This document shows, piece by piece, positions 28,007-53,484 of a stretch of DNA of 64,000 nt. The stretch lies in contig NZ_CABDUX010000001.1 of NCBI RefSeq assembly GCF_901411515.1, positions 930,001-994,000 of the forward strand, given 5' to 3'. The translations under genes and the position numbers were made by a program. The stretch comes from Raoultibacter phocaeensis. Lineage in GTDB: Bacteria > Actinomycetota > Coriobacteriia > Coriobacteriales > Eggerthellaceae. The notes under the pieces were generated by a model. That model did not search any database. It was not told the DNA's origin and saw nothing but the letters and a program-made list of their open reading frames with translations. Every line of letters starts with the position of its first letter. The first letter of the stretch is position 1.

Positions 28007-28159
28007 AATCGGCGATTGGGCGCCTGTGTGCGTGAGTCTCCGTCCCCCGCCCTGGTTTTCGCCGCCGACCAAGAAATACGTAAACTCCTTCGTGTATTAA
28101 TTATGATGTGATATCTGATACTATGATGATCCACGCACATTTATTCATGGGGATGCGAG

Positions 28160-29287: not shown

Positions 29288-29330
29288 CGAGCACGCTTTT
29301 CTCTAACCGCACAGCTCTGGTTTCCCCGAA

Positions 29331-29339
29331 TGGTATACT
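29331..29339 (+). promoter_or_regulatory. Extended -10 promoter of the first LCP gene, leaderless arrangement
   Basis: TGGTATACT (TGn plus TATACT) ends 6 bp before the ATG at 29346, and no ribosome-binding site is present, so the transcript is probably leaderless. Confidence 0.55.
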
Positions 29340-29345
29340 ACTAAG

Positions 29346-30332: not shown

Positions 30333-30374
30333 GCCCGTAAATGGCTACATACATTATGAGGGAAATCAGGATTG

Positions 30375-30383
30375 TGCTATATT
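30375..30383 (+). promoter_or_regulatory. Extended -10 promoter of the exporter-tarIJ operon
   Basis: TGCTATATT (TGn plus TATATT) lies 40 bp before the TTG start at 30424. AT content rises sharply downstream from here. Confidence 0.5.
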
Positions 30384-30423
30384 GAGCGCTTGGAATTGTG
30401 TCTAATACAGAGGACGGCGGACG

Positions 30424-31242: not shown

Positions 31243-32038
31243 TCCTACCGAGTCCAATTTGTTGGAATCATTGGGACCACGTTCAGCTGTGAGCGATGTG
31301 CCTGCGGTAAAATTCGATCATGTGACGAAAACCTATAAGTTGTACAAAAACGATCGGAGTAGGTTTCTTGGTCTTTTCAGTAGAAACAACAAAGAACTCG
31401 TAGGTATCGTTCATGCGAACAATGACTTATCGTTTGAAGTAAAAAAAGGAGAAGCGGTCGCACTGATCGGACGCAATGGGGCAGGAAAGTCGACAGCTCT
31501 TAAAATGATTACAGGTGTCAGCTACCCGACAGAAGGAACGGTAACCGTAAATGGGCGCGTAAGCGCACTGCTGGAGCTTAATGCTGGGTTTGACGGACAA
31601 CTAACAGGACGAGAGAACTTGAACCTCCGGAGTCAAGTGTTAGGTATGAGCAAAAAGGAATACAAGGAGATCGAAGAAAAAGCGATCGATTTTGCCGAAC
31701 TAGGGCTCTATATTGATCAGCCGATGAAATCGTACTCAAGTGGCATGAAGGCTCGTCTTGGATTTGCTTTCGCAGCGTCAATTGATCCTGATATCCTTGT
31801 AGTCGATGAGGCCCTTTCGGTAGGAGATAGAGAGTTCAGAAAGAAATGCATCGAGCGTATGCGGGAAATCATGTCGAACGAAAACGTGACCGTTCTTTTC
31901 GTTACCCACGAATCGGACGCAGCCCAGGAGTTCTGTACAAGAGGCATTGTGCTCAGCGAGGGGATTAAGATGTTCGATGGGCCAATCGATGCGGCTGTTG
32001 CTTATTACGAAGAACCTGTCGAGCAACAGAAACAATAG
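31232..32038 (+). CDS. Polysaccharide/teichoic acid ABC exporter, ATPase (TagH type)
   Basis: 268 residues from the ATG at 31232, behind GAGGAGG inside the permease gene. Walker A IGRNGAGKSTALKMI, signature YSSGMKARLGFA, Walker B DILVVDEALSVGD and the switch His in FVTHESDA are all present. The N-terminal 20 residues and the Y-loop (VKFDHVTKTYKLY) are typical of Wzt/TagH. No extra C-terminal substrate-binding domain is present, so the short type. It powers export of the polymer. Confidence 0.93.
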   Translation: MSFNPTESNLLESLGPRSAVSDVPAVKFDHVTKTYKLYKNDRSRFLGLFSRNNKELVGIVHANNDLSFEVKKGEAVALIGRNGAGKSTALKMITGVSYPTEGTVTVNGRVSALLELNAGFDGQLTGRENLNLRSQVLGMSKKEYKEIEEKAIDFAELGLYIDQPMKSYSSGMKARLGFAFAASIDPDILVVDEALSVGDREFRKKCIERMREIMSNENVTVLFVTHESDAAQEFCTRGIVLSEGIKMFDGPIDAAVAYYEEPVEQQKQ

Positions 32039-32072
32039 TTCAACCTGGGTAAAAAGATCGAAAGGGGCCGAA

Positions 32073-32786
32073 GTGATAGTTGCGGCTATATTAGCTGGTG
32101 GATCCGGGGTTCGTATGGGCAATCCAGATAAGCCGAAGCAATACTACCAGCTTGGGAGTAAACCCGTGCTCATCCATACGATCGAGAAGTTCTGCGCCTC
32201 AGGGCGGTTCGATGTGGTGTTAGTCTTATGCCCAGAAACGTGGCTGCAGCAAACGAAAGACTTGATTGCGCGGTTTTGCTCCGAACACTCTAACGAGGTT
32301 CAGGTTGCCACAGGCGGGCTGACCAGAACAGACACCGTACTCAATGCTATTGCGTGGATTGATGCGCATTATTGCATCGACGAGGAATCTATAATCGTCA
32401 CGCACGATGCGGTGCGTCCGTTCGTTTCGCTGCGAATTATTGAAGAGAATGTTGAAGCGGCTAAGCGGTTCGACGCCTGCGATACCGTCGTACCTGCTAC
32501 TGATACTATCGTTATGAGCGAGGATGCGACAACGATTTCGGAAATACCTGATCGACGGAACCTCTATCTTGGGCAAACCCCACAGAGCTTTAAGATAGTC
32601 AAGCTCAAGGAAACTCTTTCTTCACTCAGTGAAGACGAGAAAGCGGTTCTTACCGACGCATGCAAGGCTTTTGTTTTGCGCGGGCAGAAAGTGGAGTTAG
32701 TCAAAGGGGATACTGCTAACTTCAAAATAACCTACCCCCATGACATGCGCGTTGCTCACGCGATGCTTGGAGTCGACGAATGCTAA
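32073..32786 (+). CDS. tarI: Ribitol-5-phosphate cytidylyltransferase (TarI/IspD family)
   Basis: 237 residues from the GTG at 32073, preceded by AAAGGGG. The nucleotide-binding LAGGSGVRMGNPDKPKQYY, then LTRTDTVLNAI, HDAVRPFVS and YLGQTPQSF match the IspD/TarI family. The next gene overlaps it by 7 bp and encodes a TarJ-type alcohol dehydrogenase, which favours TarI (CDP-ribitol synthesis) over the isoprenoid enzyme IspD. The product CDP-ribitol would supply the phosphotransferases encoded downstream. Confidence 0.85.
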   Translation: MIVAAILAGGSGVRMGNPDKPKQYYQLGSKPVLIHTIEKFCASGRFDVVLVLCPETWLQQTKDLIARFCSEHSNEVQVATGGLTRTDTVLNAIAWIDAHYCIDEESIIVTHDAVRPFVSLRIIEENVEAAKRFDACDTVVPATDTIVMSEDATTISEIPDRRNLYLGQTPQSFKIVKLKETLSSLSEDEKAVLTDACKAFVLRGQKVELVKGDTANFKITYPHDMRVAHAMLGVDEC

Positions 32787-33805
32787 ACTGCGTGTATAGA
32801 CTGGTCGCTCCTCGAGCGTTCGAGCCGATCCAGATCGAGCTGGGGTCGCTGAGGAATAGCGTGTTGGTGCGCCCCACTCACTTGTCGATCTGCAACGCCG
32901 ACCAGCGATACTATCAAGGAACGCGCAGCGAAAAGGTGCTCGCTTCGAAACTTCCTATGGCTTTGATTCACGAAGGAATCGGCACCGTTTTGCGTGACGA
33001 TTCCGGTACGTACAAACGGGGTGATTGCGTTGTCATGCTTCCGAATAATCCGCACGAAACAGACCCGCTTATAGCTGAGAACTACCTTAGAAGCAGTGAG
33101 TTCTGCGGGAGCGGATATGACGGGTTTATGCAGGAGTGCGTAGGGCTTGCGCCTGATCGCGTTGTTCCATTGCCTGAATCCCTTAGCAAAAACGTCGCCG
33201 CTTTTACCGAGTTGGTAAGTGTAGCGGTTCACTCTATAACTCGGTTCGGTTTGTTTTCCCATGCCCGCCGCGACGCCATTGGAGTGTGGGGAGATGGAAA
33301 TATGGGGTTTATTGTTTCGCTGATCTTAAGCGTTATGTACCCCAACGCGCGCATAATTGTTTTTGGGCGGAACGGATTCAAACTCGAAGACTTTACCTTT
33401 GTGGACGAAACCTATCTTGTACATGACATACCTTCCGATACTCACGTCGATCACGCGTTTGAATGTTGCGGTGGAGAAGGTTCATCCCAAGCTATCGACC
33501 AAATCATTGACAGGATTAATCCAGAAGGCACTGTTTCGTTGCTTGGCGTTTCCGAAGGGCCCATTCCCGTTAATACGCGAATGGTTCTTGAAAAGGGTTT
33601 GAAGATGTTTGGAAGCAGTAGAAGCGGCAGGAAGGATTTCCTCGAGACGGTTAAGCTGTACCAAGCGCATCCCACGATGATGAACTATCTCGAAGCTCTT
33701 GTCGGACAGGTGAAACCGGTTAGTGCCATTTCGGATATAGCTACGGCATTTGAGGCGGACATTCGGAAAACGATGGGCAAAACTATTATGCTATGGAACC
33801 TCTAG
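32780..33805 (+). CDS. tarJ: Ribulose-5-phosphate reductase (TarJ-like alcohol dehydrogenase)
   Basis: 341 residues, a zinc-type medium-chain dehydrogenase shorter in the catalytic domain than classical ones. The N-terminus LVRPTHLSICNADQRYYQG carries a conserved Cys, and HEGIGTV, GFMQECV and the Rossmann loop GVWGDGNMGFI follow. TarJ reduces ribulose 5-phosphate to ribitol 5-phosphate with NADPH. The overlap with tarI (ATG inside its last codons) is the usual operon arrangement for these paired enzymes. Confidence 0.85.
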   Translation: MLNCVYRLVAPRAFEPIQIELGSLRNSVLVRPTHLSICNADQRYYQGTRSEKVLASKLPMALIHEGIGTVLRDDSGTYKRGDCVVMLPNNPHETDPLIAENYLRSSEFCGSGYDGFMQECVGLAPDRVVPLPESLSKNVAAFTELVSVAVHSITRFGLFSHARRDAIGVWGDGNMGFIVSLILSVMYPNARIIVFGRNGFKLEDFTFVDETYLVHDIPSDTHVDHAFECCGGEGSSQAIDQIIDRINPEGTVSLLGVSEGPIPVNTRMVLEKGLKMFGSSRSGRKDFLETVKLYQAHPTMMNYLEALVGQVKPVSAISDIATAFEADIRKTMGKTIMLWNL

Positions 33806-33830
33806 CTTAAAAGTGGCAGGGTGAAGCGAT

Positions 33831-35024
33831 GTGGCCGACACGATAAAACAAACAGTAAAAGATTTGATAAAGGATATATTGCTCGGATGGCTGTATCCCT
33901 TTGTGTATACCCGTGCGAGCAAGCGCCGGCAGCTTCAGAAAAACAAAGTAGTGTTTGTACAAAGAAGGGGATCGGCGCTTTCGGATAACTTCAAGCTTAT
34001 TTACGCTCGTCTCGAAAACGAAGGAGCTTGGCACCTTGAGACGACAATGTTGTACGAGTACCAAGTAGCCTACCCGCGTTACTGCGTCAACTGCATTCGC
34101 CTTGCGAGGGAGGTTGCAACTGCGGGCTATGTGTTTCTCGACGATGCCTCCGAGGTGATAAGCTGTCTGCCTTTGAAAAGCGATACGTGTGTCGTGCAGC
34201 TGTGGCATGCCTGCGGCGCTTTCAAAAAGTTCGGTATGAGTACGGCGGATCTTCAGTTCGGTGGTTCGAGGGAACAGAAGATTAAGCATCCATTTTACGA
34301 GAATCTGTCGTTGGTAACGGTAAGCAGCCCCGATGTAGTTTGGGCGTATGTTGAGGCCATGGTTCTCGACGATACACCGGATATTGTAAAGCCTCTCGGC
34401 GTAAGTCGAACGGACGTGTTTTTTGATCAATCTTTTTTGTCAGAGGCGCGAAAAAAAGTCGATAAGCTTGTGCCGTTCGCAGCAGGCAAAAAAATAATTC
34501 TTTATGCACCAACATTCCGCGGGCGCGTTATCGGCGCAAAAGGACCAAACGAGTTGGATATACGAGGGCTTAAACGCATCCTCGGAGATCGTTATGTACT
34601 CGTAATCAAACATCATCCTTACGTCGTTGATACGCCGCGCATTCCAGACGGTTGCGAGGACTTTGCGGTTGACGTCAGCTTCTCGGGGCTTTCGATCGAA
34701 ATACTTTTGGCCGCATCCGACATATGCATTTCTGATTACTCGTCTCTCGTGTTCGAGTACTCTTTGTTTACCCGTCCCATAGTTTTTTTCGCTTATGATA
34801 TCGAGGATTATAAAGACTGGCGAGGGTTCTACTACGACTATGAGGAACTAACTCCAGGGCCTATCGTAACCACCAACGAAGAGCTCATCGACTACCTCGG
34901 TAATGTCGAGCGTTTATTTGATGCGCAACGTGTAGTTGAGTTCAAAAAGAGGTTTATGAGCGCTTGCGACGGGCGTGCCACCGACCGAATCATGCAGGCT
35001 GTGTTCGAAAACGAGACTCATTAA
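33831..35024 (+). CDS. CDP-glycerol/CDP-ribitol phosphotransferase (TagF/TarL-like)
   Basis: 397 residues from a GTG preceded by AGGGTGA. The glycerol/ribitol-phosphotransferase fold is visible from VVQLWHACGAFKKFG, ILYAPTFRGRV, VIKHHPYV, and ISDYSSLVFEYSLFTRP, including the conserved His of the HHP and the DYSS nucleotide-binding segment. It transfers polyol-phosphate units from CDP-polyol to a growing lipid-linked chain on the inner membrane face. Which polyol is not decided by sequence; the tarIJ genes just upstream suggest ribitol. It overlaps the following gene by one base (TAATG). Confidence 0.88.
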   Translation: MADTIKQTVKDLIKDILLGWLYPFVYTRASKRRQLQKNKVVFVQRRGSALSDNFKLIYARLENEGAWHLETTMLYEYQVAYPRYCVNCIRLAREVATAGYVFLDDASEVISCLPLKSDTCVVQLWHACGAFKKFGMSTADLQFGGSREQKIKHPFYENLSLVTVSSPDVVWAYVEAMVLDDTPDIVKPLGVSRTDVFFDQSFLSEARKKVDKLVPFAAGKKIILYAPTFRGRVIGAKGPNELDIRGLKRILGDRYVLVIKHHPYVVDTPRIPDGCEDFAVDVSFSGLSIEILLAASDICISDYSSLVFEYSLFTRPIVFFAYDIEDYKDWRGFYYDYEELTPGPIVTTNEELIDYLGNVERLFDAQRVVEFKKRFMSACDGRATDRIMQAVFENETH

Positions 35025-36175
35025 TGAAAGCAAAAAGAGTTTTTGTTTCCCTATCAAAAGTGATATTCAATATTCTCTACGCGCTGTTCGATCGCTTTTC
35101 GCGGAAAAACGAGGTGCTCTTCGTATCGCGGCAAGCCGACGAGCCGAACGATGATTTCGTGGCCATCGGAGAAGAGTTTCTAGCTTGTGGTTGGATCCCC
35201 GTGTATCACACAAAAAAATTATCGAGAAAAACAGTAATATCGTACGCTATACATGTGGCTGTAGAGATATATCATCTTGCGCGCTGCAAGGTGTGCATAC
35301 TCGATCGATACGATCCCGTCGTCAGCTTACTCGATTTCTCATGCGAGCGGGTCGAGCGGGTCGAACCGATGCATCATTACGAATACCCGAAAGCTCCTGT
35401 TGTAATACAGATATGGCATGCGTTTGGATCATACAAATGCTTCGGATACCAATCCCTCGATACGCTAGAAGGGCATTCGTCGAAGACGGCCAAACTTTTT
35501 GACATCCATCGCAATTACAGCTGGATTCTTTGCACGGGCGAACGTGACCGCGCAGTGTATGCAGAAGCGTTTGCTTATCCCGTCGAAAGAGTGATTCCTC
35601 TCTGCCGCCCAGAATACGACGCACTGATAGAAAAGGCGAAAAGCTTTCGACGCGACAAAAGAAAAAGCACGCCCACGGTACTTTTTGCACCAACGCTGAG
35701 AAAGAGCAGCGCTTCCGAGCATCCGTTTTATGACTTGCATGATTCGCCGAAGCTTTTTCGATTGCCCGGACGGCTTGTTTGGTCGTTCCATCCTCTTGAA
35801 CAGGGAAAGTGTGCTCCTGGATCGGTTCCGGAGGTTCTCGGTGAAGCCGATATCGTGGTGACAGATTATTCGAGTATCGTGTACGAGGCATATGTGCTCG
35901 GCAAAAAAGTTGTTTTCTATGTTCCCGATATTGACGTATATCGTGAATCGCCGGGCCTCAATAGGGATCCTCTCGTAGAATCGCCACGAATCACGTGTAC
36001 TTCCGAAGAGGAGCTTATTGGGTTTTTAACGGATTTGATAAGTGGGTCGTTAGAATACTCTTACGATGCCTTTAGTTCGTTCATTGGCGATACGTTTGCC
36101 CAGTGTCGTCCTGGTGCCGCGAAACGAATCGCGGCTTTCGCTATTGATAAATACGAGAAAACGACTTTAGACTAA
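35024..36175 (+). CDS. CDP-glycerol/CDP-ribitol phosphotransferase (TagB/TarF-like)
   Basis: 383 residues from the ATG at 35024 that overlaps the preceding stop; a longer frame upstream is inside that gene. It has VIQIWHAFGSYKCFG, VLFAPTLRK, and VTDYSSIVYEAYVLGKKVVFY, the same fold as its neighbour but divergent in sequence, so the two probably add different or successive units. The downstream gene on the opposite strand overlaps its end by 4 bp. Confidence 0.87.
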   Translation: MKAKRVFVSLSKVIFNILYALFDRFSRKNEVLFVSRQADEPNDDFVAIGEEFLACGWIPVYHTKKLSRKTVISYAIHVAVEIYHLARCKVCILDRYDPVVSLLDFSCERVERVEPMHHYEYPKAPVVIQIWHAFGSYKCFGYQSLDTLEGHSSKTAKLFDIHRNYSWILCTGERDRAVYAEAFAYPVERVIPLCRPEYDALIEKAKSFRRDKRKSTPTVLFAPTLRKSSASEHPFYDLHDSPKLFRLPGRLVWSFHPLEQGKCAPGSVPEVLGEADIVVTDYSSIVYEAYVLGKKVVFYVPDIDVYRESPGLNRDPLVESPRITCTSEEELIGFLTDLISGSLEYSYDAFSSFIGDTFAQCRPGAAKRIAAFAIDKYEKTTLD

Positions 36176-43003: not shown

Positions 43004-45886
43004 ATGAAAATGCTTAGGCGAATTGATAGAATCGGGAAACGGGTGATAAAGCAAAAGCTTGCACCGAGCTTGCACCGCTTAGCTCTGCGCGGCAAGCGGC
43101 GGGTGCTTGCCGAGACCGGCGCGGACTACCTTTTCACCGTCGTGGTGCCCATATACAACGTCGAGCCATACCTCGAGGAGACGCTCGAGAGCATCGTCTG
43201 CCAGACCGTCGGGTTCCGCGAGAACATACAGCTCGTGCTCGTCAACGACGGCAGCCCGGACGGGTGCGGGAGGATATGCGAGAGGTACCTGAGGCGGTAC
43301 CCCGAGAACGTGGTGTACGTCGAACAGGAGAACGCGGGCGTGAGCGCTGCGTGCAACGTCGGCTTATCGCATGCGCGCGGCGCGTTCGTCAACTTCATGG
43401 GCGCCGACGACAAATGGAGCGAGGATGCTTTTGAGGAAGCTTATGTATTTCTTTTTACCCACAAAAACGTACCACTCGTTGCGTTCCGAATGATTTTTTT
43501 CGAAGCAAAAGAAGGAAACCATGTTTTAAATTTCAAGTTTTCTAAAACTACCACCATATGGGTTCATGATCAATACGATTGCCCTCAGCTTTCAATAGGG
43601 GGGGCGATAGTGCGTTTACAGGCTGTTCCCGCAGGAGGCTTTGACGAAAGACTGACCATATCCGAGGATTTTAAACTCCTAACGCAAACTATACTCGAAC
43701 ACGGTTGCTACGGTGTTAGTTCCCATGGCAAGTATTATTACAGAAAACGCCTCTCTGCCGACTCGGCGCTCAATTCCGGACTTTGTAGTACTTCATGGTA
43801 TTTCACAACCCCGGAGCTGTGCTATAGAGAGCTAATCGAAGCCTCGTTTAGAAAATATGGAAAAGTAACTCGCTACGTTCAGTTTTGCATCATGTATGAT
43901 CTCCAATGGCGAATAGTACGGAACACCAATCCTGGGTTTCTTGATGAAGGTCGCGAAGCCGCATACCGATTATTGCTTCGAAGCTTTCTTCCGGACATAT
44001 CTGATGAGATTATTGCTGAGCAGCGCGATTTGAACGAAATACAAAAACTATACGTATACTGCGAAAAGTACGATATCGAGTTTCCTGATGCTCAAAATCG
44101 ATTATCGGCCCAAGCCGAGAATCTCGTTTTTCTGCCTTTTTCTGGTCTTAAACCTGTTCGCATTGGAACAATGGCCTCACAGAAACGTGTGCTTGTACGG
44201 TTTGTTTCGATTTCATCCGATGGAGAGTTGGTTATTGAAGGAGATATCGACAACCTTTTTCCGCGCGAAAGAGTTCGCTTGGAAGTACAGGTGAACGACG
44301 AGGTGTACGAGACTCCTTTGTTCTCGAGGGCTTACGCGCGAGGGGGGAGGTCGTTTTTTGAAAAAGGCTTTCTTGATCGGCACTGCTTTTTCTTTTCTCA
44401 TCAACTAAATACCGACTCTGCAAAAGTGCATATGAAAGTGGTGGTAGACGGCAAACCGTACGAATGGACAGCGCGATTTTGCCATTTTTCAGGTCTATCC
44501 ATTGAAAGCTCGTACAGGATTGAAGACGAGTATGTTCTAAGCGTTACCAAGGACGGTGGTTTTCTTGAAATAAAACGAGACGCACCGAGTTATCAGGAGT
44601 GTCAATCTTTGGAGCGGCGTTTTATGGAAAGCGTACCGCAAGGGGCTTTGAGCGAGTATCAGATTACGCTAAGAAAACGCGTGATAGAACACCGTTACAA
44701 AAACTGCGGGCAACGCATCTGGCTTATTAGTGACTCGGTTTTGCGAGCGGATGATAACGGTCGAGCGTTATTTACCTATCTTATGATGAACCCCGTAGCA
44801 GGCGTAGATCCCTATTTTGTCCTTTCACGTTCTTCCTCTGACTTCAATGCTCTTGAAGCAATCGGGCCCGTGGTGGATCGCGCCTCGCAAGAATACGACT
44901 ATCTTTTTTTACTGGCAGATAAAGTAATTTCATCAGCAGCCGAAGATTCGGTAATCCATCATTTTGATAAGGCGGAGCCGTTTATGAGAGATATGTATCG
45001 GTTCGGTTTTGTCTTCCTTCAGCACGGTGTTACCACAAATGATTTGTCAGAGTGGCTGAATCGGTTCAATAAAAATATTGCATGCATAGTAAGCGCGGCA
45101 CAAAAAGAAAAGGAAGCGTTTTTAAAAGCCCCTTATGGATACAAAGAGGATAATATCGCGCTCACGGGGTTTCCACGCCATGACTACCTCGATACGGGGC
45201 GCCCTGCTGATAAGATCGTATTGCTGATGCCGACGTGGCGCTCCGATACGGTTGATTCCTACGATCAGGAACTGGGGGTACGCCAGTGGAGCGACGGTTT
45301 TGTGCGCTCAGAGTATTTCAAATTCTATAATTCTTTGATAAATGACGAGGAACTCCTTGGAGGTCTCAAGAAGGCAGGGTATAAGATGGAGTTCATCCTT
45401 CACCCTGCGATGCGGCAGCAGAAGGACGACTTTCAAGAAAACGAGACAGTGCGTGTTGTTTCCGACGCATCCTATCCCGACGCATTCCAACGTGGTGCCC
45501 TTTTGGTTACCGATTACTCAAGCGTAGCGTTTGACTTCGCTCTCTTCAAAAAACCGATAATCTATGTTCAGTTCGATAAAGAAACGTTTTATGATGGACA
45601 GGCGTATTCTGCTGGGTATTATGATTATTACACTGATGGTTTTGGCCCGGTTGTTTATGGACTACGTGAAGCGGTACATGCAATAATCAGTCAGGTTGAG
45701 TGTGGATGTATTATGGAAGACAAGTATGTAAAACGAGTGGGGTCTTTCATGTTCATCCCCAATAAACCGCGGTGTGCTTTGCTGGTCGACCACTTGCTTA
45801 ATGGAAAGACGGCCGACAATGATTGTTGCACAGACATAGGTAGCGAGAAAGCCGATACGGAGGAGCCATGCAGTTCATTGATTTGA
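43004..45886 (+). CDS. Bifunctional GT2 glycosyltransferase-polyol phosphotransferase
   Basis: 960 residues; the ATG at 43004 lies 19 bp after the previous stop. A basic stub of about 30 residues precedes the GT2 domain (about 31-260: VVVPIYNVEPYLEE, VNDGSPDG, FMGADDKW). The middle is divergent, and the C-terminal phosphotransferase (about 560-950) has FVFLQHGVTTNDLSEW, LLMPTWRSD, LHPAM and VTDYSSVAFDFALFKKP. Outside the identical cassette the two neighbouring giants share only moderate similarity, so the cassette was exchanged recently. A 7-G run (43588-43594) lies in its coding sequence but does not break the frame. Confidence 0.87.
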   Translation: MKMLRRIDRIGKRVIKQKLAPSLHRLALRGKRRVLAETGADYLFTVVVPIYNVEPYLEETLESIVCQTVGFRENIQLVLVNDGSPDGCGRICERYLRRYPENVVYVEQENAGVSAACNVGLSHARGAFVNFMGADDKWSEDAFEEAYVFLFTHKNVPLVAFRMIFFEAKEGNHVLNFKFSKTTTIWVHDQYDCPQLSIGGAIVRLQAVPAGGFDERLTISEDFKLLTQTILEHGCYGVSSHGKYYYRKRLSADSALNSGLCSTSWYFTTPELCYRELIEASFRKYGKVTRYVQFCIMYDLQWRIVRNTNPGFLDEGREAAYRLLLRSFLPDISDEIIAEQRDLNEIQKLYVYCEKYDIEFPDAQNRLSAQAENLVFLPFSGLKPVRIGTMASQKRVLVRFVSISSDGELVIEGDIDNLFPRERVRLEVQVNDEVYETPLFSRAYARGGRSFFEKGFLDRHCFFFSHQLNTDSAKVHMKVVVDGKPYEWTARFCHFSGLSIESSYRIEDEYVLSVTKDGGFLEIKRDAPSYQECQSLERRFMESVPQGALSEYQITLRKRVIEHRYKNCGQRIWLISDSVLRADDNGRALFTYLMMNPVAGVDPYFVLSRSSSDFNALEAIGPVVDRASQEYDYLFLLADKVISSAAEDSVIHHFDKAEPFMRDMYRFGFVFLQHGVTTNDLSEWLNRFNKNIACIVSAAQKEKEAFLKAPYGYKEDNIALTGFPRHDYLDTGRPADKIVLLMPTWRSDTVDSYDQELGVRQWSDGFVRSEYFKFYNSLINDEELLGGLKKAGYKMEFILHPAMRQQKDDFQENETVRVVSDASYPDAFQRGALLVTDYSSVAFDFALFKKPIIYVQFDKETFYDGQAYSAGYYDYYTDGFGPVVYGLREAVHAIISQVECGCIMEDKYVKRVGSFMFIPNKPRCALLVDHLLNGKTADNDCCTDIGSEKADTEEPCSSLI
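43094..43424 (+). repeat. 331-bp perfect direct repeat, copy 2
   Basis: Second copy of the GC-rich segment at 40237-40567, in the 5' part of the second giant transferase gene. Confidence 0.93.
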
Positions 45887-46989
45887 AAACTCAATTCGAG
45901 CGCATAGAGGAGGACGTTATAACCCGTGTGAACGCCGTTCTACGTAGCCAGCGCTACATTATGGGCCCAGAGGTTCAGAAGCTCGAAGAGCAGCTTGCTG
46001 ATTTTGCCGGTACGAAACACGCTTTCACGTGCGCGAGCGGAACGGACGCCCTCGTCATTCCTTTGATGGCGTACGAGCTTGCCGAATCTGATGCCGTTTT
46101 CGTTCCCTCGTTTACGTTTTTCGCTTCGGCAGAAAGCATCACCCTTGCGGGGGGAACTCCTATTTTTGTCGACATCGATGAAAGCACATTCAACATCGAT
46201 CCGGTGCACTTAGAAAACGAGATAGAGCGGGTTCTTGGCGAGGGGAAGTTAAAGCCTCGGGGAGTAATGCCTGTAGATCTTTTCGGACGATTGGCGGATT
46301 ACGATGCGATATGGCGCATTGCGGACAAGTACGATCTATTTGTGATCGAGGATGCATGTCAGGGGTTCGGGGCATCTTTGAGCGGAAAACGTGCTTGTTC
46401 GTTTGGAAACGTAGGGGCAACGTCGTTCTTTCCTGCAAAACCTTTAGGCTGTTATGGTGATGGTGGCGCAATATTTACCGATGATGATGAGCTGGCTTCT
46501 CTTATCATGTCGATTCGGGTGCATGGACAAGGTGTGGATAAGTACGACAACGTTCGCATCGGCGTGAACGGTCGTTTCGACGCCATTCAGGCTGCCATTG
46601 TGTTGGCAAAGCTTCAAGTTTTTGAAGACGAGTTGATCAGGCGCGCTCAAGTTGCGCAGTACTATACGGAACATCTCTCTGATATCCTACGTACTCCTAC
46701 GGTACCCGAACAATCTGTTTCGGCGTGGGCGCAGTATACCTTGGTTGCAGAAGATGCAGAACAGCGAACCAAGATTCTTTCCGGAATGAAGGAGAAGGGC
46801 GTTCCCTCGGCAGTATATTATCCTGTACCCATACATCGTTCAACGGCGTATCGAAATTTGGGTTACGAAGACGTTAGTTTGCCCGTGAGTGAGGCTCTCG
46901 CATCAAAAGTGTTCAGTATTCCCATGCATCCATACCTTAACGAGAAAGACATGGACAAGGTAGTTGACGCAATAAAAGGGAGCCTGTAA
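45868..46989 (+). CDS. DegT/DnrJ/EryC1 sugar aminotransferase
   Basis: 373 residues; the ATG overlaps the previous gene by 19 bp and follows GGAGG. PLP-dependent enzymes of this family aminate keto-sugar nucleotides. Landmarks are FIDLKTQF, RYIMGPEVQKLEEQLADF, CASGTDAL, VIEDACQGFGA, and SFFPAKPLGCYGDGGA with the PLP-binding Lys, then RVHGQG. The start of the protein resembles the WbpE subgroup, which installs a 3-amino group on UDP-sugars; the partner oxidoreductase encoded next fits this. The exact sugar is not known. Confidence 0.9.
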   Translation: MQFIDLKTQFERIEEDVITRVNAVLRSQRYIMGPEVQKLEEQLADFAGTKHAFTCASGTDALVIPLMAYELAESDAVFVPSFTFFASAESITLAGGTPIFVDIDESTFNIDPVHLENEIERVLGEGKLKPRGVMPVDLFGRLADYDAIWRIADKYDLFVIEDACQGFGASLSGKRACSFGNVGATSFFPAKPLGCYGDGGAIFTDDDELASLIMSIRVHGQGVDKYDNVRIGVNGRFDAIQAAIVLAKLQVFEDELIRRAQVAQYYTEHLSDILRTPTVPEQSVSAWAQYTLVAEDAEQRTKILSGMKEKGVPSAVYYPVPIHRSTAYRNLGYEDVSLPVSEALASKVFSIPMHPYLNEKDMDKVVDAIKGSL

Positions 46990-47951
46990 TGGAAATGCTC
47001 AAGGTAGGGGTACTCGGCACCGGGAATATGGGGCGGAATCATTTAAGGGTTCTCTCCTCCATGCACGAGTACGAGCTCGTTGGTTGTTTCGACGTTAACT
47101 TTGAGTCTGCGAAACAGCAAGCAGAGCTTTATGGGATACAAGCGTTTCGCTCGCAAGAAGAATTATTCGATGCAGTTGATGAGGTGCATATCGTTACCCC
47201 ATCGTTCCTGCACGAAGAGTGTGCTGTAGCAGCCGCCAAGGCGGGCTGTCATGTACTCGTCGAAAAACCCATCGCCTTAACTCTTGAGGCTGCCCAAAAC
47301 ATAATCGATGCTTGCGAGAGTGCTGGCGTCAGACTCTGCGTTGGGCATGTGGAGAGATTTAATCCTGCCATAACGACATTGCTTGAGATCCTAAAACAAG
47401 AGGAAGTTTTGTCTGTTGATTTTCGCCGCATGAGTCCTTTTGATCGACGTGTGTCCGATGCAAGCGTTGTACAGGATCTCATGATTCACGATATCGATGT
47501 CCTCAATGCGATTGCGGATTCTCCTGTGAAACGTGTTGTCGGTCAAGGTGCGAATGTGTATACCGATAAGCTCGATTATGCCCAGGCTTTGGTCGAGTTT
47601 GAAAACGGCCTTCTTGCCAGCTTAACGGCGAGCCGAATCACCGAGACGAAAATACGGTGTGCAGAAATCAACGCTCGCAACGCCTTCATAGCTGTTGATT
47701 ATCTTAACCGGTCGGTTAGAATATCTCGCAAAACGAACTTTACACTTGATGTTGGTTACAGCTTACAGTACAAGCAAGAAAACATTATCGAGCAAGTGTT
47801 TGTTCCGTCTAACGAGCCCTTACGAGCGGAGTTTCAGCATTTCGCCAACTGCATTCAGACAGGCGAACCAGTAGCAACCAGCGGGGAGATGGGTAAAAAG
47901 GCACTTGCGCTTTGCCTTGAGATAACCGAAAAGGCCCAGTTGGGCAATTAA
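46989..47951 (+). CDS. Gfo/Idh/MocA-family sugar oxidoreductase
   Basis: 320 residues from an ATG overlapping the previous stop by one base. The NAD-binding loop VGVLGTGNMGRNHLRVL, then VEKPIALTLEAA, the catalytic region CVGHVERFNPA and QDLMIHDIDVLNAI are typical. In WbpB-like enzymes this family oxidises the 3-hydroxyl of a UDP-sugar, giving the ketone that the DegT aminotransferase converts to an amine. The pairing with the gene before it supports that role by inference. Confidence 0.88.
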   Translation: MEMLKVGVLGTGNMGRNHLRVLSSMHEYELVGCFDVNFESAKQQAELYGIQAFRSQEELFDAVDEVHIVTPSFLHEECAVAAAKAGCHVLVEKPIALTLEAAQNIIDACESAGVRLCVGHVERFNPAITTLLEILKQEEVLSVDFRRMSPFDRRVSDASVVQDLMIHDIDVLNAIADSPVKRVVGQGANVYTDKLDYAQALVEFENGLLASLTASRITETKIRCAEINARNAFIAVDYLNRSVRISRKTNFTLDVGYSLQYKQENIIEQVFVPSNEPLRAEFQHFANCIQTGEPVATSGEMGKKALALCLEITEKAQLGN

Positions 47952-47966
47952 CATAAGGAGGCCATC

Positions 47967-48206
47967 GTGAGCAATTCTGAAACATACGACCAGATTTTCC
48001 TTGAAACACTTGAGTTGGAGGAAGAGCAGTTGGGGGATGGTTTGGAATACCAATCTGTTTCCAACTGGGATTCCGTGGGCCATATGCAGCTTACCTCGGC
48101 GCTGGAAGATGCCTTCGATATTATGCTAGATACCGACGATATAATCGATTTCACTTCGTATTCTGTAGGAAAAGACATCTTGAGAAAGTATGGCGTTGAA
48201 TTCTAG
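47967..48206 (+). CDS. Acyl carrier protein
   Basis: 79 residues, acidic, from a GTG preceded by TAAGGAGG. The segment NWDSVGHMQLTSALEDAF contains the Ser that would carry phosphopantetheine (DSxxxMxL type), followed by a helical acidic C-terminus (DTDDIIDFTSY). It is not the usual fatty-acid synthase AcpP sequence but a pathway-specific carrier. The next gene overlaps its end by 17 bp and encodes the enzyme likely to charge it. Confidence 0.88.
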   Translation: MSNSETYDQIFLETLELEEEQLGDGLEYQSVSNWDSVGHMQLTSALEDAFDIMLDTDDIIDFTSYSVGKDILRKYGVEF

Positions 48207-49608
48207 AGAATACGGACAGGACAAGGTTTGGGGAAATCGAGTAGCTCTTGTCGACGAAGAGAAGACCATAACGTTCTCTCAGCTTTGCTCGGCAGCGGAT
48301 TCTGTAACCGAAGGGCTGAAATCGCGTACGGTCGTATTGTTTATAGCTTCTAACACCGTCGCATGCGTTGTCGGCTATGTCGCGTTTATGAGGAAAGGTA
48401 TTGTACCTTTGATGGTGTCTTCCTCTATTGGTGAAGACGAGCTTAACGCCTTGCTTGAAATGTACGAACCCGAATATGTGTGGCACAAAGACATTGATGG
48501 ATTTCCGGGCAGAACTGCGGCTGTGTATGGGGATTATCGGCTTACCGAGACAGCGTACGAAAGCGCATCAGAGATTAATTCCGACCTAGCGCTGCTTTTA
48601 ACAACTTCGGGGTCTACTGGAACCCAGAAATACGTAAGGTTGACATACGAGAATGTCAAGAGCAACGCTTCGGCCATAGCCGAGTACCTTAGCATTACGG
48701 AAGATGACAGAGCGATAACCACGCTGCCGCTCTCCTACTCGTATGGGCTATCGATTATCAACAGCCATTTGATCTCGGGAGCTTCAATAATTCTCACAGA
48801 GCGGACACTATTCGATCGCGGGCTGTGGAATCTATTAAAGGAAAAGGAAGCAACCTCGTTTGGCGGTGTGCCGTATACCTATGAAATGCTGAAACGTCTG
48901 CATTTTGAACGCATGGACATACCGTCTCTCAGATACATAACGCAAGCAGGCGGTCGGTTGAGCGAAGAATTGCAGCACGAATTTGCTGAGATCTGCATGA
49001 GCAAGGGCATCGAATTTTTTGTGATGTATGGACAGACTGAAGCCACGGCGCGATTAACTTATTTGCCAGCGGAGTATGCTTCAGAAAAAATCGGAAGCAT
49101 AGGAGTACCAATTCCTGGTGGAGAGATTATGCTAGCCGACGAAGAAGGGAATGCGATATCGGAAGCCAATAAGGCGGGGGAACTTGTCTATAAGGGTTCT
49201 AATGTATCGTTGGGCTATGCAACTTGTCGTGCCGATCTCGGCCTCGGCGACGAGCGCCATGGGTGGCTTAAGACCGGCGATGTTGCTATGCGAGACGAAG
49301 ATGGGTTTTATCGGATCGTCGGAAGAAAGAAACGGTTTCTTAAACTGTACGGCAACCGCGTGAACCTCGACGATGTCGAAGCAATTTTGTCTAAAGAGGG
49401 GTACGTGGCAGCTTGTGCGGGTAGAGACGATAGTATGAGCGTTTACGTTGAGGGAGATCAGGAAAACGCTAAAGCTGCGCAAGTCTTCTTAGCGAATAAA
49501 CTGGGACTGTATAAAGGTGCGTTCAAGGTAAGGCCCATCACTGCCCTTCCTCGCAATGAAGCAGGCAAGCTCCTATACGCAGAGCTGGAGGCAACGAAAA
49601 ATGCTTGA
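48190..49608 (+). CDS. AMP-dependent acyl-activating enzyme (acyl-ACP synthetase-like)
   Basis: 472 residues, a member of the ANL superfamily. Visible are the P-loop TTSGSTGTQKYVRLTYENV, MYGQTEATARLTYLP, TGDVAMRDEDGFYRIVGR, and the catalytic Lys in PRNEAGKLLY. It would adenylate a carboxylic acid and load it as a thioester, here most likely on the acyl carrier protein encoded just before. The start overlaps the ACP gene. The acyl substrate is not predictable from the sequence by eye. Confidence 0.88.
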   Translation: MALNSREYGQDKVWGNRVALVDEEKTITFSQLCSAADSVTEGLKSRTVVLFIASNTVACVVGYVAFMRKGIVPLMVSSSIGEDELNALLEMYEPEYVWHKDIDGFPGRTAAVYGDYRLTETAYESASEINSDLALLLTTSGSTGTQKYVRLTYENVKSNASAIAEYLSITEDDRAITTLPLSYSYGLSIINSHLISGASIILTERTLFDRGLWNLLKEKEATSFGGVPYTYEMLKRLHFERMDIPSLRYITQAGGRLSEELQHEFAEICMSKGIEFFVMYGQTEATARLTYLPAEYASEKIGSIGVPIPGGEIMLADEEGNAISEANKAGELVYKGSNVSLGYATCRADLGLGDERHGWLKTGDVAMRDEDGFYRIVGRKKRFLKLYGNRVNLDDVEAILSKEGYVAACAGRDDSMSVYVEGDQENAKAAQVFLANKLGLYKGAFKVRPITALPRNEAGKLLYAELEATKNA

Positions 49609-50641
49609 TTACGAAGCGCTTTTCGAGTTGGAGCCGTTTGGGCTTGAGCAAAAAGAAAAAGAGAACCTGTACAATCATTGGCTGGCAGAGCTTTCTCGTC
49701 ACCATTGCCTTTCGTGTGAAAGCTACCAAAGGATCGTGAACGTGCTCGGAGATAATCCTGCTCTGCCCGTACGTCTTTTCAAAGATTTTGACCTGATGAG
49801 CATTGATGCATCTGATATCGTAAAAACAATGACATCTTCTGGCACAACAGGCCAAAGAGTATCGAAGATATACCTTGATCGATCCACTTCGGCTCGGCAA
49901 ACAAAAGCCCTAGCAAAAATCGTTTCAAGCTTTACTGGCTCTAAGAGAATGCCGATGCTTATTGTTGATTCGAGTGCGGTGGTAAAAAACAGAGCAATGT
50001 TTTCGGCACGTGGCGCAGGAATATTGGGATTTTCGGTTTTTGGCAGAGATGTGACATACGCCCTCGATGAAAACATGAACTTAGATATTGAAGCTATTAA
50101 ATCTTTTCAGGAAAGACATCGCGACGAGAGTGTTTTGCTTTTCGGCTTTACTTTCATGATATGGCAGTATTTTTGTCAAGCGTTGCTCGAAAAAGGCATA
50201 ATGCTCGACATGAGAGGAATCATGATCCACGGAGGCGGCTGGAAGAAGCTTGTCACGGAGAGCGTCACCAACGAGGAGTTCAAAAGAATTGTTGCCGAGA
50301 CATCGGGGATACAGCAGATCCACAACTACTATGGGATGGTTGAGCAGACCGGGTCGGTTTTTATGGAATGCGAGGAAGGACATCTCCACGCGTCGGTTTT
50401 TTCTGATGTGTTTACTTTAGATCCGCTGACCTTGCAGCAGACGGAAGGGCGAGGTGTGGTAGGTTGCGTTTCGCTGCTGCCTACAAGTTACCCTGGCCAC
50501 ATCCTTCTTACCGAAGACGAAGGAGAAGTACTCGGGGTCGACGACTGCCCATGCGGAAGAAAAGGAAGGTATTTCTCTATCTACGGAAGAATGCGTGGTG
50601 CAGAAATAAGGGGGTGCAGCGATACACATGAAAAGCGATAG
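49601..50641 (+). CDS. LuxE-like acyl-protein synthetase
   Basis: 346 residues from the ATG at 49601, overlapping the preceding stop by 8 bp. The LuxE family is recognised by MTSSGTTGQRVSKIYLD, an HGGGWKKL segment, NYYGMVEQTGSVF, and a C-terminal cysteine-rich DDCPCGRKGRYF, all typical of the LuxE/acyl-protein synthetase superfamily. In light-emitting bacteria LuxE activates fatty acids and passes the acyl group to LuxC. No luxA, luxB or other lux genes occur here, so the reaction must serve another pathway. Confidence 0.88.
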   Translation: MLDYEALFELEPFGLEQKEKENLYNHWLAELSRHHCLSCESYQRIVNVLGDNPALPVRLFKDFDLMSIDASDIVKTMTSSGTTGQRVSKIYLDRSTSARQTKALAKIVSSFTGSKRMPMLIVDSSAVVKNRAMFSARGAGILGFSVFGRDVTYALDENMNLDIEAIKSFQERHRDESVLLFGFTFMIWQYFCQALLEKGIMLDMRGIMIHGGGWKKLVTESVTNEEFKRIVAETSGIQQIHNYYGMVEQTGSVFMECEEGHLHASVFSDVFTLDPLTLQQTEGRGVVGCVSLLPTSYPGHILLTEDEGEVLGVDDCPCGRKGRYFSIYGRMRGAEIRGCSDTHEKR

Positions 50642-51839
50642 AGAAATCGTCATTGACAACGGTATGCTAGTCGATTTTCTTTTAGGAAATGCCAACGTGG
50701 AACAGCGTCCCCTTCCCGTTTACTCCGATGAGGCAGTTGCATTTCTTTCGGATCTTTCAAAAGCTCTTATGAACGATCCCGAAACGAGATCGTATCCAGA
50801 TGTGGTTTCGTTCGGATATTGGTGTCGCAAAGCGAATGTAATGAAAAGAAAACAGCAGTTAAACGGAATTGGCGAAGCATGCTTTCGCGTCGGACGGGGG
50901 TTGGCCTTTCACGTAGCCCCGTCTAACGTACCTGTAAACTTCGCGTTCTCTTTTGTTTTTTCGCTTCTCGCAGGCAATGCAAACATAGTGCGTGTGCCAT
51001 CAAAGCCTTTTAAGCAAGTCGAGTTTATTCTTCGCTCAATACGCGGACTGCTAAAAAAACATCCAGAAATCGGCAAAAGAACCGCGTTTGTTTCATATCC
51101 ATCGAGCAGCGAAGCGACCAAAGCATTTAGCGCTTGCGCCGATGTTCGAATAATATGGGGTGGTGATCAGACTGTTGCGGAGGTGCGTTTGTGTCCGTCA
51201 AAGCCCCGTTGCAAGGATATTGTTTTCTCCGACAGATACTCATTTGCTTTTATAAACGGCAAGGAACTCGAATCGGTTCCAGGTGACGTTATGAGGCGGA
51301 TAGCCCGTGATTTCTATAATGATACGTATCTGATGGATCAAAACGCCTGTTCATCTCCTCATATGATTATTTGGAAAGGTGCCGATGATGCGATAAAAGC
51401 AAGCTTTTGGAAAGCCGTGGAGAACGTCGCCGAGTTCGAGTACGATTTGCAGCCGGCAGTGGTGATGGATAAATATGTACAGCTATGCGAAGACGCGATA
51501 CGCGGAAACGTAATAGAAGGTATTGAATTTAACGGGTTGCTAGTGGCCGTAAACCTCGAATCACTTCCCGAGAATGTCGAGCAATTGCGCGGAAAGGGGG
51601 GGTATTTTTATCAAATCGACGATGTGGAGCTACATGATTTCGCTCTGCTTGTGTCGGAAAAGACCCAAACCTTAACCTACTATGGTTTTACGGCGCATGA
51701 GCTTGGCGAACTAATTCAATCTCTCGGGTCTTTCGGCATAGATAGAATCGTACCCATTGGGGCAGCGATGGATATCGACATCATATGGGATGGATACGAT
51801 CTAGTTGGAGAAATGTCTCGGATAATCGATATAAGATAG
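50628..51839 (+). CDS. LuxC-like acyl-CoA/acyl-protein reductase
   Basis: 403 residues from an ATG overlapping the LuxE-like gene by 14 bp. The family shows FHVAPSNVPVNFAFSFVFS, AGNANIVRVPSKP and the active-site Cys in DQNACSSPH, as in LuxC fatty-acyl reductases, which reduce an acyl thioester to an aldehyde with NADPH. The product here is unknown. Placement directly after LuxE, the overlap, and the SDR gene 9 bp downstream argue that an acyl group is reduced stepwise in this operon. A 7-G run at 51596-51602 lies in frame. Confidence 0.88.
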   Translation: MKSDREIVIDNGMLVDFLLGNANVEQRPLPVYSDEAVAFLSDLSKALMNDPETRSYPDVVSFGYWCRKANVMKRKQQLNGIGEACFRVGRGLAFHVAPSNVPVNFAFSFVFSLLAGNANIVRVPSKPFKQVEFILRSIRGLLKKHPEIGKRTAFVSYPSSSEATKAFSACADVRIIWGGDQTVAEVRLCPSKPRCKDIVFSDRYSFAFINGKELESVPGDVMRRIARDFYNDTYLMDQNACSSPHMIIWKGADDAIKASFWKAVENVAEFEYDLQPAVVMDKYVQLCEDAIRGNVIEGIEFNGLLVAVNLESLPENVEQLRGKGGYFYQIDDVELHDFALLVSEKTQTLTYYGFTAHELGELIQSLGSFGIDRIVPIGAAMDIDIIWDGYDLVGEMSRIIDIR

Positions 51840-51847
51840 GAAAACAT

Positions 51848-52591
51848 ATGAGACTGAACAGTAAAATATGCCTCATAACTGGGGCCAGCAAAGGAATAGG
51901 GCGTGCAACCGTGGAGCGTTTCTGCAAAGAAGGCGCAACGGTGTATGCGAATGGTCGTAATGAGGGCTCTTTGGACGAGTGGGCGGATTCGCTTACGAAC
52001 GAAGGGCCTGGGAAGGTTGTCCCGGCCTACTTCGACGTCACGGATGAGATTTCGGTAAAGAGCTGTATCCAGAGAATAAGAAAAGAGCAAGGGCGGCTCG
52101 ATGTTCTTGTAAACAATGCGGGCATACTGAAGGATGCTCCTATTGGAATGATTTCCCATGCAATGACCGAAGAAGTTTTTACAACTAATGTCTTCGCAGT
52201 TATCAATCTGATTCAGTATGCGTGTAAGCTTATGGTACGGCAAAAATCAGGCAGTATTATTAACATGGCCTCCATAATGGGCGTTGTTGGCAACAAGAAT
52301 CAAGTTGTATATGCGGGTTCAAAAGGAGCGATTGTCGCGGTGACAAAATCGGCTGCGAAGGAGCTCGCCCCCTTCAATATCAGAGTGAACGCTATAGCGC
52401 CAGGAATAATTGATACCGATATGTTTCATCAAATTGGTGACGAGTTCGCAAAAGAGCTCGTTGATAGAGTCGGAATGCATCGCGTTGGATCAGCTGATGA
52501 CGTTTCAAAGTTGTGTCTCTTCCTCGCATCTGATGATTCTTTATACATCTCGGGTCAAATCATCGGCGTCGATGGAGCCATGGTTGTGTAG
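51848..52591 (+). CDS. Short-chain dehydrogenase/reductase (FabG-like)
   Basis: 247 residues from the ATG at 51848. The cofactor loop TGASKGIGRATVE, NNAG, the active-site SIMGVVGNKNQVVYAGSKG with the YxxxK pair, and RVNAIAPGIIDTDM are typical of 3-oxoacyl-ACP reductases. Here it may reduce a keto group on the acyl chain or on the sugar. It lies 9 bp after the LuxC-like gene in the same operon. Many SDRs share this pattern, so substrate assignment is uncertain. Confidence 0.88.
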   Translation: MRLNSKICLITGASKGIGRATVERFCKEGATVYANGRNEGSLDEWADSLTNEGPGKVVPAYFDVTDEISVKSCIQRIRKEQGRLDVLVNNAGILKDAPIGMISHAMTEEVFTTNVFAVINLIQYACKLMVRQKSGSIINMASIMGVVGNKNQVVYAGSKGAIVAVTKSAAKELAPFNIRVNAIAPGIIDTDMFHQIGDEFAKELVDRVGMHRVGSADDVSKLCLFLASDDSLYISGQIIGVDGAMVV

Positions 52592-52620
52592 TACGATATG
52601 CGAACAAAGCGAGGACAGAG

Positions 52621-53484
52621 ATGACAGCAAGCCCAGAGGTGAGGAGTAACGTGGTTACCAAGGCGTCTTTCATTGGAGAGCCAGTAAGCAACACTGTTTT
52701 ATACGTCGGTATTAAACTCGAGAACAAGCTGCAAAACCTTGAAGCAGTTGAAGGTTGTTTGGTATTCGTAGAAAGCGGTATGACTCCTTCCGAGTCTTTA
52801 CGAGCAAAGCATGAGTTTAGATTTTCGGACAACCCTGTACTTGAATACGCACGGTATGCGCAAGAGATTGCCACGAGGGAGTTCAATAGCGGTAGGGAAA
52901 GAAAGATCGTGATGACCGACGAAGGTTATTACCGGGGTGAAGGGGTTGTTCTCGGCCGCAATGTCTATATTGAGCCAGGGGCGTTTATCGGTCACGACGT
53001 TCGTATTGGCGATGACACAATAGTTTTGACGCATGCCGTGATCAAGCATGCAACCATCGGCTCCCAGTGCCTGATTAAAGAGCATGCCCAAATCGGCGCT
53101 CAAGGCTTTACCATGGTTCAAGACGAAGAAGGCAACGAAATGCGCATTCCGTGTCTCGGAGCCGTATGCATTCACGATCACGTTGAAGTGGGTAGTTTTA
53201 CCACGGTTTGCCGCGGACAAAATACCGATACTACCCTGTCTCATCATGTCAAGATTGACGATCACGTGCACGTCGGGCACGACGTGCACCTTGGAAGCAA
53301 TACCATCATTGCTGCAGCTGCAACACTTGGGGGATATGACAAAACGGGAGCGAATGCATATGTCGGCCTTAATGCTACCATCAAACAGCTGGTTACTCTC
53401 ACAGACGACGCACAAATCAGTATGGGCTCTCGAATTGCCAAGGACGTAACCTCTGCTTCAGGTATGTACGGTATGCCACGGTAA
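52621..53484 (+). CDS. LpxD-like left-handed beta-helix acyltransferase
   Basis: 287 residues. The N-terminal domain of about 100 residues is followed by hexapeptide repeats (GVVLGRNVYIEPGAFIGHDV, then IGSQCLIKEHAQIGAQGF). The LpxD/LpxA-type catalytic region is IDDHVHVGHDVHLG with paired His, then ATLGG. LpxD uses acyl-ACP to N-acylate a UDP-amino sugar. In this Gram-positive-like setting, and after an ACP and a sugar aminotransferase, an N-acylation of the new amino sugar is the natural guess. It is the last gene of the operon. Confidence 0.85.
   Translation: MTASPEVRSNVVTKASFIGEPVSNTVLYVGIKLENKLQNLEAVEGCLVFVESGMTPSESLRAKHEFRFSDNPVLEYARYAQEIATREFNSGRERKIVMTDEGYYRGEGVVLGRNVYIEPGAFIGHDVRIGDDTIVLTHAVIKHATIGSQCLIKEHAQIGAQGFTMVQDEEGNEMRIPCLGAVCIHDHVEVGSFTTVCRGQNTDTTLSHHVKIDDHVHVGHDVHLGSNTIIAAAATLGGYDKTGANAYVGLNATIKQLVTLTDDAQISMGSRIAKDVTSASGMYGMPR

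Follow-up and report, generated by a model that had tools for sequence, protein, structure and literature searches.

Gene content of the operon

The window analyzed here is a stretch of 64,000 nt from the genome of Raoultibacter phocaeensis (assembly GCF_901411515.1, contig NZ_CABDUX010000001.1, forward strand, positions 930,001–994,000); coordinates below are those of the window. Inside a teichoic-type wall-polymer cluster, it carries an operon at 45868–53484 whose eight genes all lie on the plus strand, with gaps or overlaps of at most 29 bp. They encode a DegT aminotransferase, a Gfo/Idh dehydrogenase, an acyl carrier protein (ACP), an acyl-adenylating ligase, LuxE- and LuxC-type proteins, a FabG-like short-chain dehydrogenase/reductase (SDR), and an LpxD-like acyltransferase (Table 1). 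These open reading frames lie where the initial annotation had placed them, and their assigned identities are borne out by Pfam and NCBIfam families. Two start sites were revised (LuxE, 49601 instead of 49556; SDR, 51848 instead of 51785), and the ACP gene has a GTG start preceded by an AAGGAGG ribosome site. Based on these genes and their relatives, we propose, with a probability of roughly 65%, that the operon makes an amino sugar with a short hydroxylated N-acyl group, which would be fed to the adjoining wall-polymer glycosyltransferases.

Table 1. Features of the acyl-sugar operon and of the adjoining polymer genes
Feature	Position	Strand	Basis
DegT/WbpE-GnnB-type C3 aminotransferase, pyridoxal phosphate (PLP) lysine K191	45868..46989	+	Pfam/NCBIfam, solved relatives 4qgr, 3nyu
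Gfo/Idh dehydrogenase, GnnA-like, predicted UDP-GlcNAc 3-dehydrogenase	46989..47951	+	NF040723, 7bvj
Dedicated ACP, phosphopantetheine Ser36	47967..48206	+	NCBIfam, residue comparison
Acyl-adenylating ligase, predicted acyl-ACP ligase, A10 lysine K460	48190..49608	+	PF00501
LuxE-type acyl-protein synthetase, C-terminal Cys	49601..50641	+	PF04443, alignment to 7xc6_E
LuxC-type acyl-thioester reductase, Cys241	50628..51839	+	PF05893, alignment to 7xc6_A
FabG-like SDR, predicted aldehyde or 3-oxoacyl reductase	51848..52591	+	Pfam/NCBIfam, Ser/Tyr/Lys
LpxD-like left-handed beta-helix N-acyltransferase, His220	52621..53484	+	NCBIfam, alignment to E. coli LpxD
Family 2 glycosyltransferase (GT2) + CDP-polyol phosphotransferase (Glyphos_transf) two-domain protein	43004..45886	+	Pfam, ORF coordinates
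Poly(ribitol-phosphate)-type wall-polymer backbone genes	26933..36175	+	family matches

The acyl-making core

The catalytic residues of the core were compared across 89 loci, which were picked by LuxE alone, so that co-occurrence of the other core genes is not circular; several of these loci lie on truncated contigs. The iterated LuxE profile also recruited LuxC through fused proteins; genes were therefore assigned by best score, and the best-scoring LuxE of each locus was used for the residue checks. The roles of the compared residues are established for their families. The ACP is weak in the family libraries (22.9 bits, NCBIfam); the D-S-V motif with the phosphopantetheine serine is present, and this serine is kept in 81 of 81 ACPs. 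Two additional ACPs are encoded elsewhere in the genome. The ligase matches the AMP-binding family PF00501 at 178 bits, and its A10 lysine is found in all 87 ligases. LuxE matches PF04443 over the whole protein (161 bits, above the cut-off), and its C-terminal Cys, which aligns with C364 of the solved LuxE 7xc6_E, occurs in 89 of 89 LuxE proteins. LuxC, encoded by a single copy in the 3.86-Mb genome, scores 100 bits against PF05893 (cut-off, 21). Its Cys241 aligns with the catalytic Cys of the solved LuxC 7xc6_A, and this residue is present in 82 of 83 LuxC proteins, the remaining one being lost to a gap. Similarly, the SDR (204 bits) has Ser, Tyr, and Lys in place, with Tyr and Lys present in 72 of the 73 SDRs compared.

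The LuxC–LuxE pair of bioluminescence (7xc6) shares the acyl-transfer Cys of LuxE and the catalytic Cys of LuxC with the operon. In contrast, that system has long-chain substrates and is accompanied by luxAB. As initially annotated, luxAB is missing here: the luciferase family PF00296 had no match across the genome (10 of 14 controls were positive), and a role in bioluminescence was rejected on this ground. An unlikely alternative is that LuxE, LuxC, and the ACP handle long-chain acids, as LuxE and LuxC of luminous bacteria do, and yield a lipo-sugar or a fatty aldehyde or alcohol; a "liposugar" has indeed been proposed for flagellin islands with similar genes (PMC4875605, PMC7874193). However, the window LuxE is distant from the luminous enzyme, reaching only 65.5 bits with the luminous-bacteria model NF052244 (cut-off, 550), the cassette sits in hydrophilic surface-glycan loci, and the glycan of an Aeromonas island shows a 102-Da part, a fatty acid being unreported.

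Sugar enzymes and acyltransferase

The DegT aminotransferase (352 bits in Pfam/NCBIfam) has 4qgr (391 bits) and WbpE 3nyu (343 bits) as its best solved relatives. Its K191 is the PLP lysine rather than the His of the dehydratases and is kept in 31 of 31 DegT proteins from the neighborhoods. For the Gfo/Idh protein, the closest NCBIfam model is the UDP-GlcNAc 3-dehydrogenase NF040723 (239 bits, under the cut-off of 450), and among solved relatives 7bvj, which we take to be GnnA, scores 145 bits and the next one 69 bits. Moreover, the sole clear nucleotide-sugar 6-dehydrogenase in the genome belongs to the UDP-glucose type, with 470 bits against TuaD and 95 bits against TviB, a UDP-GlcNAc enzyme; a UDP-GlcNAc-type 6-dehydrogenase was not found in the genome. 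Because the Gfo/Idh protein matches 7bvj and NF040723 best and the only clear 6-dehydrogenase is of the UDP-glucose type, the sugar is more likely to be UDP-GlcNAc3N, the GnnA/GnnB product, than a uronic acid. The WbpB/WbpE pair that the initial annotation had offered as the analog thus gives way to enzymes that look more GnnA/GnnB-like and would act on UDP-GlcNAc.

An improbable alternative is that a WbpB/WbpE-type pair yields a uronic acid, UDP-GlcNAc(3N)A. The score of DegT against WbpE speaks for it, as do two relatives (L030 and L032; L numbers label individual loci) in which a nucleotide-sugar 6-dehydrogenase and WbpB-like genes adjoin the cassette, whereas the cassette in the window has no 6-dehydrogenase. 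Since L030 and L032 carry uronic-acid genes, the acceptor sugar appears to vary among relatives. The Gfo/Idh gene of L030 (Gordonibacter, 16522–17858) is split into two overlapping frames, a frameshift or an assembly error.

The acyltransferase scores 157 bits against the LpxD subfamily model, below the cut-off of 207, and its His220 aligns with the catalytic His239 of E. coli LpxD; these matches indicate an LpxD-like enzyme. The initial annotation had asked whether the LpxD-like or LuxE-like protein might lack catalytic residues; in the alignments both have them. An AlphaFold2 model of the LpxD-like protein (four-sequence alignment, pLDDT 67) gave no meaningful fold match and was discarded. 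LpxC was not found in the genome, and a role in lipid A was rejected for this reason.

Predicted pathway

In the pathway that we propose, the Gfo/Idh enzyme would oxidize C3 of UDP-GlcNAc, and DegT would transaminate the product to UDP-GlcNAc3N, following GnnA/GnnB logic. In parallel, a small carboxylic acid would be adenylated by LuxE and held on its C-terminal Cys; LuxC would receive the acyl group on its own Cys and reduce it to the aldehyde, which the SDR would turn into an alcohol. The ligase would then load the hydroxy acid onto the dedicated ACP via the other carboxylate, and the LpxD-like enzyme would transfer the hydroxyacyl group from the ACP to the 3-amino group. Two activating enzymes with one carrier would make sense here if the starting acid had two carboxylates. 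Transfer of an acyl-ACP to an amino sugar is the step that we consider highly probable, and the reductive conversion of one acid end into a hydroxyl is probable. As the leading candidate for the acyl group, malate-derived 2,4-dihydroxybutanoyl (3-deoxytetronyl) is suggested tentatively, by analogy with the proposal for Vibrio cholerae O1. The reactions are all assigned by homology, and the acyl group, acceptor, and polymer are inferred.

Wall-polymer setting

The backbone genes of the cluster encode a GT2, a WecA/MraY-type phosphotransferase, LCP ligases, an ABC exporter with a TagH-like ATPase, a D-ribitol-5-phosphate cytidylyltransferase (317 bits against a cut-off of 166), an alcohol dehydrogenase, and TarL/TarF-type CDP-polyol phosphotransferases. 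The teichoic-type setting in the initial annotation agrees with this gene set, and because the cytidylyltransferase, TarL/TarF-like, exporter, LCP, and WecA/MraY-type genes occur together, the acceptor is likely a poly(ribitol-phosphate)-type wall polymer. In addition to the two-domain protein directly upstream of degT, GT2/CDP-polyol phosphotransferase proteins are encoded at 36172–38823 (minus strand) and at 39136–42984 (1282 aa); they are unusual multidomain polymer synthases. Downstream of the operon, a DUF6020 protein is encoded at 54697–56520 on the minus strand.

The upstream polymer gene shares 19 bp with degT, which makes read-through from the polymer genes into the acyl-sugar genes probable. 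The GC content at third codon positions is 0.46–0.53 in the eight genes, similar to that of the adjacent polymer genes. Promoter and terminator scans gave signals at or below shuffle level. It could be argued that the operon makes a small metabolite or lipid unrelated to the wall polymer and lies in the cluster by chance, since secondary-metabolite clusters also contain ACPs, ligases, SDRs, and thioesterases, the last of which occur in relatives of the operon. This is very improbable given the overlap with the polymer gene, the similar base composition, and the relatives in several phyla that adjoin glycosyltransferases, nucleotide-sugar genes, and pseudaminic acid (Pse) genes.

Comparison with known systems

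The initial annotation had left the LuxC–LuxE step unexplained, and a precedent for it exists in V. cholerae O1: according to PMC4772473, which cites Morona 1995, RfbN has a LuxE domain and is involved in the synthesis of 3-deoxy-L-glycero-tetronate for the O antigen. RfbL activates 2,4-dihydroxybutanoate, with RfbK as the putative carrier (PMC12208996), and mutants in the ligase gene wbeL have an altered O1 antigen and phage receptor (PMC3441752). The proposal of a tetronate pathway dates from 1995 and was based on sequence (Morona et al., cited in PMC12208996 and PMC4772473); in 2025, the carrier step was still described as putative (PMC12208996). The rfbK-L-M-N (wbe) genes share with the window a dedicated ACP, a ligase, a LuxE domain, and, as predicted for the window, an acylated amino sugar of a surface polysaccharide; furthermore, the ACP, ligase, LuxE, and LuxC that the tetronate pathway requires are encoded together in the window. 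RfbN also holds a LuxC part, so that LuxE and LuxC are joined in one protein in V. cholerae, and RfbM is an alcohol dehydrogenase. In the original proposal, malate is reportedly reduced at one carboxylate. In contrast, the window has LuxE and LuxC in separate polypeptides (fused only in three distant relatives), an SDR, and, as predicted, a 3-amino sugar and a Gram-positive wall polymer, while V. cholerae O1 has a Gram-negative O antigen with perosamine and neither an LpxD-like enzyme nor a GnnA/GnnB pair. RfbN-like LuxE–LuxC fusions were not found in the 369 Gammaproteobacteria searched.

The Group II flagellin island of Aeromonas carries a cassette of ACP, 3-oxoacyl-ACP reductase, AMP synthetase, luxE, and luxC (PMC7874193), and comparable cassettes occur in enterobacterial flagellin glycosylation islands (PMC4875605). 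The same five enzyme families thus stand in one block as in the window; the Aeromonas islands differ in lying beside Pse genes, in having the SDR after the ACP, and in lacking a GnnA/GnnB-like pair. Two gammaproteobacterial loci, L138 and L139, show this layout, with Pse-type genes followed by ACP, SDR, ligase, LuxE, and LuxC; their LuxE proteins are 44–46% identical to the window LuxE, and PseC scores above its cut-off in L138. The flagellin glycan of A. piscicola AH-3 contains a 102-Da part reported as unknown and a 376.14-Da Pse derivative (PMC7874193). By calculation, a dihydroxybutanoate residue (C4H6O3) has a mass of 102.032, and Pse5Ac7Ac with one acetyl replaced by it has a mass of 376.148.

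For the sugar branch, the closest parallel is the GnnA/GnnB UDP-GlcNAc3N pathway of lipid A, whose gene roles are described in PMC7663294. It likewise uses a Gfo/Idh and DegT pair to make a 3-amino sugar that is then N-acylated; here, in contrast, LpxC is absent and the acyl group would come from the dedicated ACP cassette. In Flavobacterium psychrophilum, wfpC-G encode a polysaccharide-specific ACP and a PglD-like acyltransferase, which are predicted to attach a dihydroxyacyl group to an amino sugar (PMC6519341). There, the chain is predicted to arise from 3-ketoacyl-ACP synthases, and LuxE is unmentioned in the text (PMC6519341). Collectively, the operon appears to combine a tetronate-type core with a GnnA/GnnB-like pair and an LpxD-like transferase, in a version that serves a Gram-positive wall polymer. 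Because of the precedents in V. cholerae, Aeromonas, Enterobacteriaceae, and Flavobacterium, it is not a new kind of system, and the "new pathway" of the initial annotation was too strong a term for a core that is widespread and has like cassettes in flagellin islands (PMC7874193, PMC4875605).

Conservation and exchangeable modules

Full-length LuxE occurs in 7 of 138 genomes of the family of R. phocaeensis, a patchy distribution typical of surface-polymer genes. Weak PF04443 matches in most of the 138 genomes cover the last third of the model only and were rejected as other adenylating enzymes. One locus from Coriobacteriales (L041, JAITRZ010000041.1) has all eight genes in identical order, with identities, in gene order, of 56, 67, 68, 49, 61, 47, 57, and 50%. 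When the genome collection was scanned with the LuxE alignment, at least 571 relatives were confirmed; the best 80 are mostly from gut Bacillota and Bacteroidota, and the ACP-ligase-LuxE-LuxC core is found in at least 12 phyla, as judged by record titles, plus Deinococcota. Around LuxE in the 89 loci, the ligase is present in 87, LuxC in 83 and fused to LuxE in 3 more, the ACP in 80, the SDR in 73, a transketolase pair in 45, DegT in 31, a beta-helix acyltransferase in 27, and a GNAT acyltransferase in 21; LuxE and LuxC are direct neighbors in 81 loci, and ligase and LuxE in 64. Since LuxC is single-copy in the genome, the order recurs one for one in L041, and the core recurs around LuxE, the grouping is not due to chance, and the scattering in relatives that the initial annotation had considered is not seen. 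Of the 89 loci, 49 have a recognized acyltransferase (hexapeptide or GNAT) within the same gene run and 29 have a DegT aminotransferase there, which supports the earlier suggestion of a dedicated acyl-ACP pathway with transfer to an amino sugar.

In three loci from Bacteroidales and Thermoguttaceae, LuxE and LuxC are fused into proteins of 766–778 aa (L094, 3999–6332; L102, 8956–11253; L104, 8953–11250); the LuxE Cys is kept in L094 and L102, and the LuxC Cys in L102. The fusions argue that both enzymes act together. A ligase–LuxE fusion in L035 (Nonomuraea) was rejected as GC-rich read-through, as ligase and LuxE have separate frames there.

A quick tree of LuxE, with many weak branches, requires a minimum of 13 changes in acyltransferase type (beta-helix or GNAT) and a minimum of 28 in the transketolase state; the counts carry no direction. 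Repeated acyltransferase swaps are expected if the maker of the acyl-ACP is constant and the acceptor variable, consistent with a core that forms a fixed acyl-making unit with exchangeable ends. Beside the core, the 45 loci with a transketolase have it split into N- and C-terminal halves, usually in the order SDR-TKn-TKc (among others L030, L042, L046, L050, L057-L062, L077, and L105), and this pair may add two carbons to the LuxC aldehyde. In L044, L045, L065, L074, L094, L100, and L106, a thiamine diphosphate (ThDP) enzyme of the acetolactate-synthase family and, immediately after it, a NeuB-like synthase adjoin LuxE/LuxC, often with a FabZ-like dehydratase; we know of no pathway that uses this set. 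Both modules raise the alternative that the LuxC aldehyde serves C–C bond formation or reductive amination, giving an extended acyl group. For the window, this is quite improbable, as the modules are absent from its operon and from L041, where the SDR is the only extra reductase.

A relative of lactate/malate dehydrogenases accompanies the cassette in 11 loci (L044, L059, L068, L074, L081, L082, L097, L103, L106, L107, and L110), immediately downstream of LuxC in 10 of them. At the specificity position, where Arg marks malate and Gln lactate dehydrogenases, all 11 have Arg, a finding that independently favors a malate-like substrate. Twelve loci have a type II thioesterase-like protein next to the cassette, mostly between ligase and LuxE (L051, L068, L074, L081, L082, L095, L097, L099, L106, and L108-L110), an arrangement that resembles carrier-protein assembly lines with editing. 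Furthermore, the cassette occurs on plasmids, some of them conjugative (L036, CP140837.1, and other Rhizobium plasmids; L034, Deinococcus; L033, Ponticoccus), and therefore can move between strains.

Discussion

Based on gene families, conserved residues, and neighborhoods, we regard the pathway as real and conserved. Several points weigh against the acylated amino sugar that we propose. In the sugar branch, the assignment of the Gfo/Idh protein to GnnA scores under the curated cut-off. In the acyl branch, an SDR occupies the place of the alcohol dehydrogenase RfbM, and the link to RfbN, RfbK, RfbL, and Aeromonas is drawn from papers and family names. The 102-Da match was made after the fact, and C4H6O3 has isomers such as O-methylglyceroyl. 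The malate-type dehydrogenase is absent from the window and its close relatives, and the one cassette dehydrogenase run on family models was called an L-lactate dehydrogenase (NCBIfam). Finally, the acyltransferase is unrecognized in 40 of the 89 gene runs, and approximately half of the relatives carry the transketolase pair, so that use of the aldehyde may differ there.

It is possible, at somewhat less than even odds, that LuxE, LuxC, ligase, and ACP form a general modular core, found in gut bacteria of many phyla, by which small dicarboxylic acids are converted into decorated acyl groups destined for surface glycans. Its acyltransferases and side modules (SDR; SDR plus split transketolase; malate-type dehydrogenase; ThDP enzyme plus NeuB-like synthase; KAS III plus dehydratase) would be exchangeable. 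If so, N-acyl sugars would make up a large family whose chemistry is unexplored, and the LuxC aldehyde would enter C–C bond formation in some modules. This breadth and modularity, which is not described in the papers found, is the more interesting part of the result.

Tetronate logic recurs here in a compact operon of a Gram-positive bacterium, the eight enzymes of which lend themselves to joint testing. If the proposed pathway is correct, it would explain the role of "lux" genes in non-luminous bacteria and would give a concrete identity to the 102-Da part of the Aeromonas flagellin glycan. Moreover, a class of acylated sugars in walls and capsules would be predicted at the microbe–host interface.

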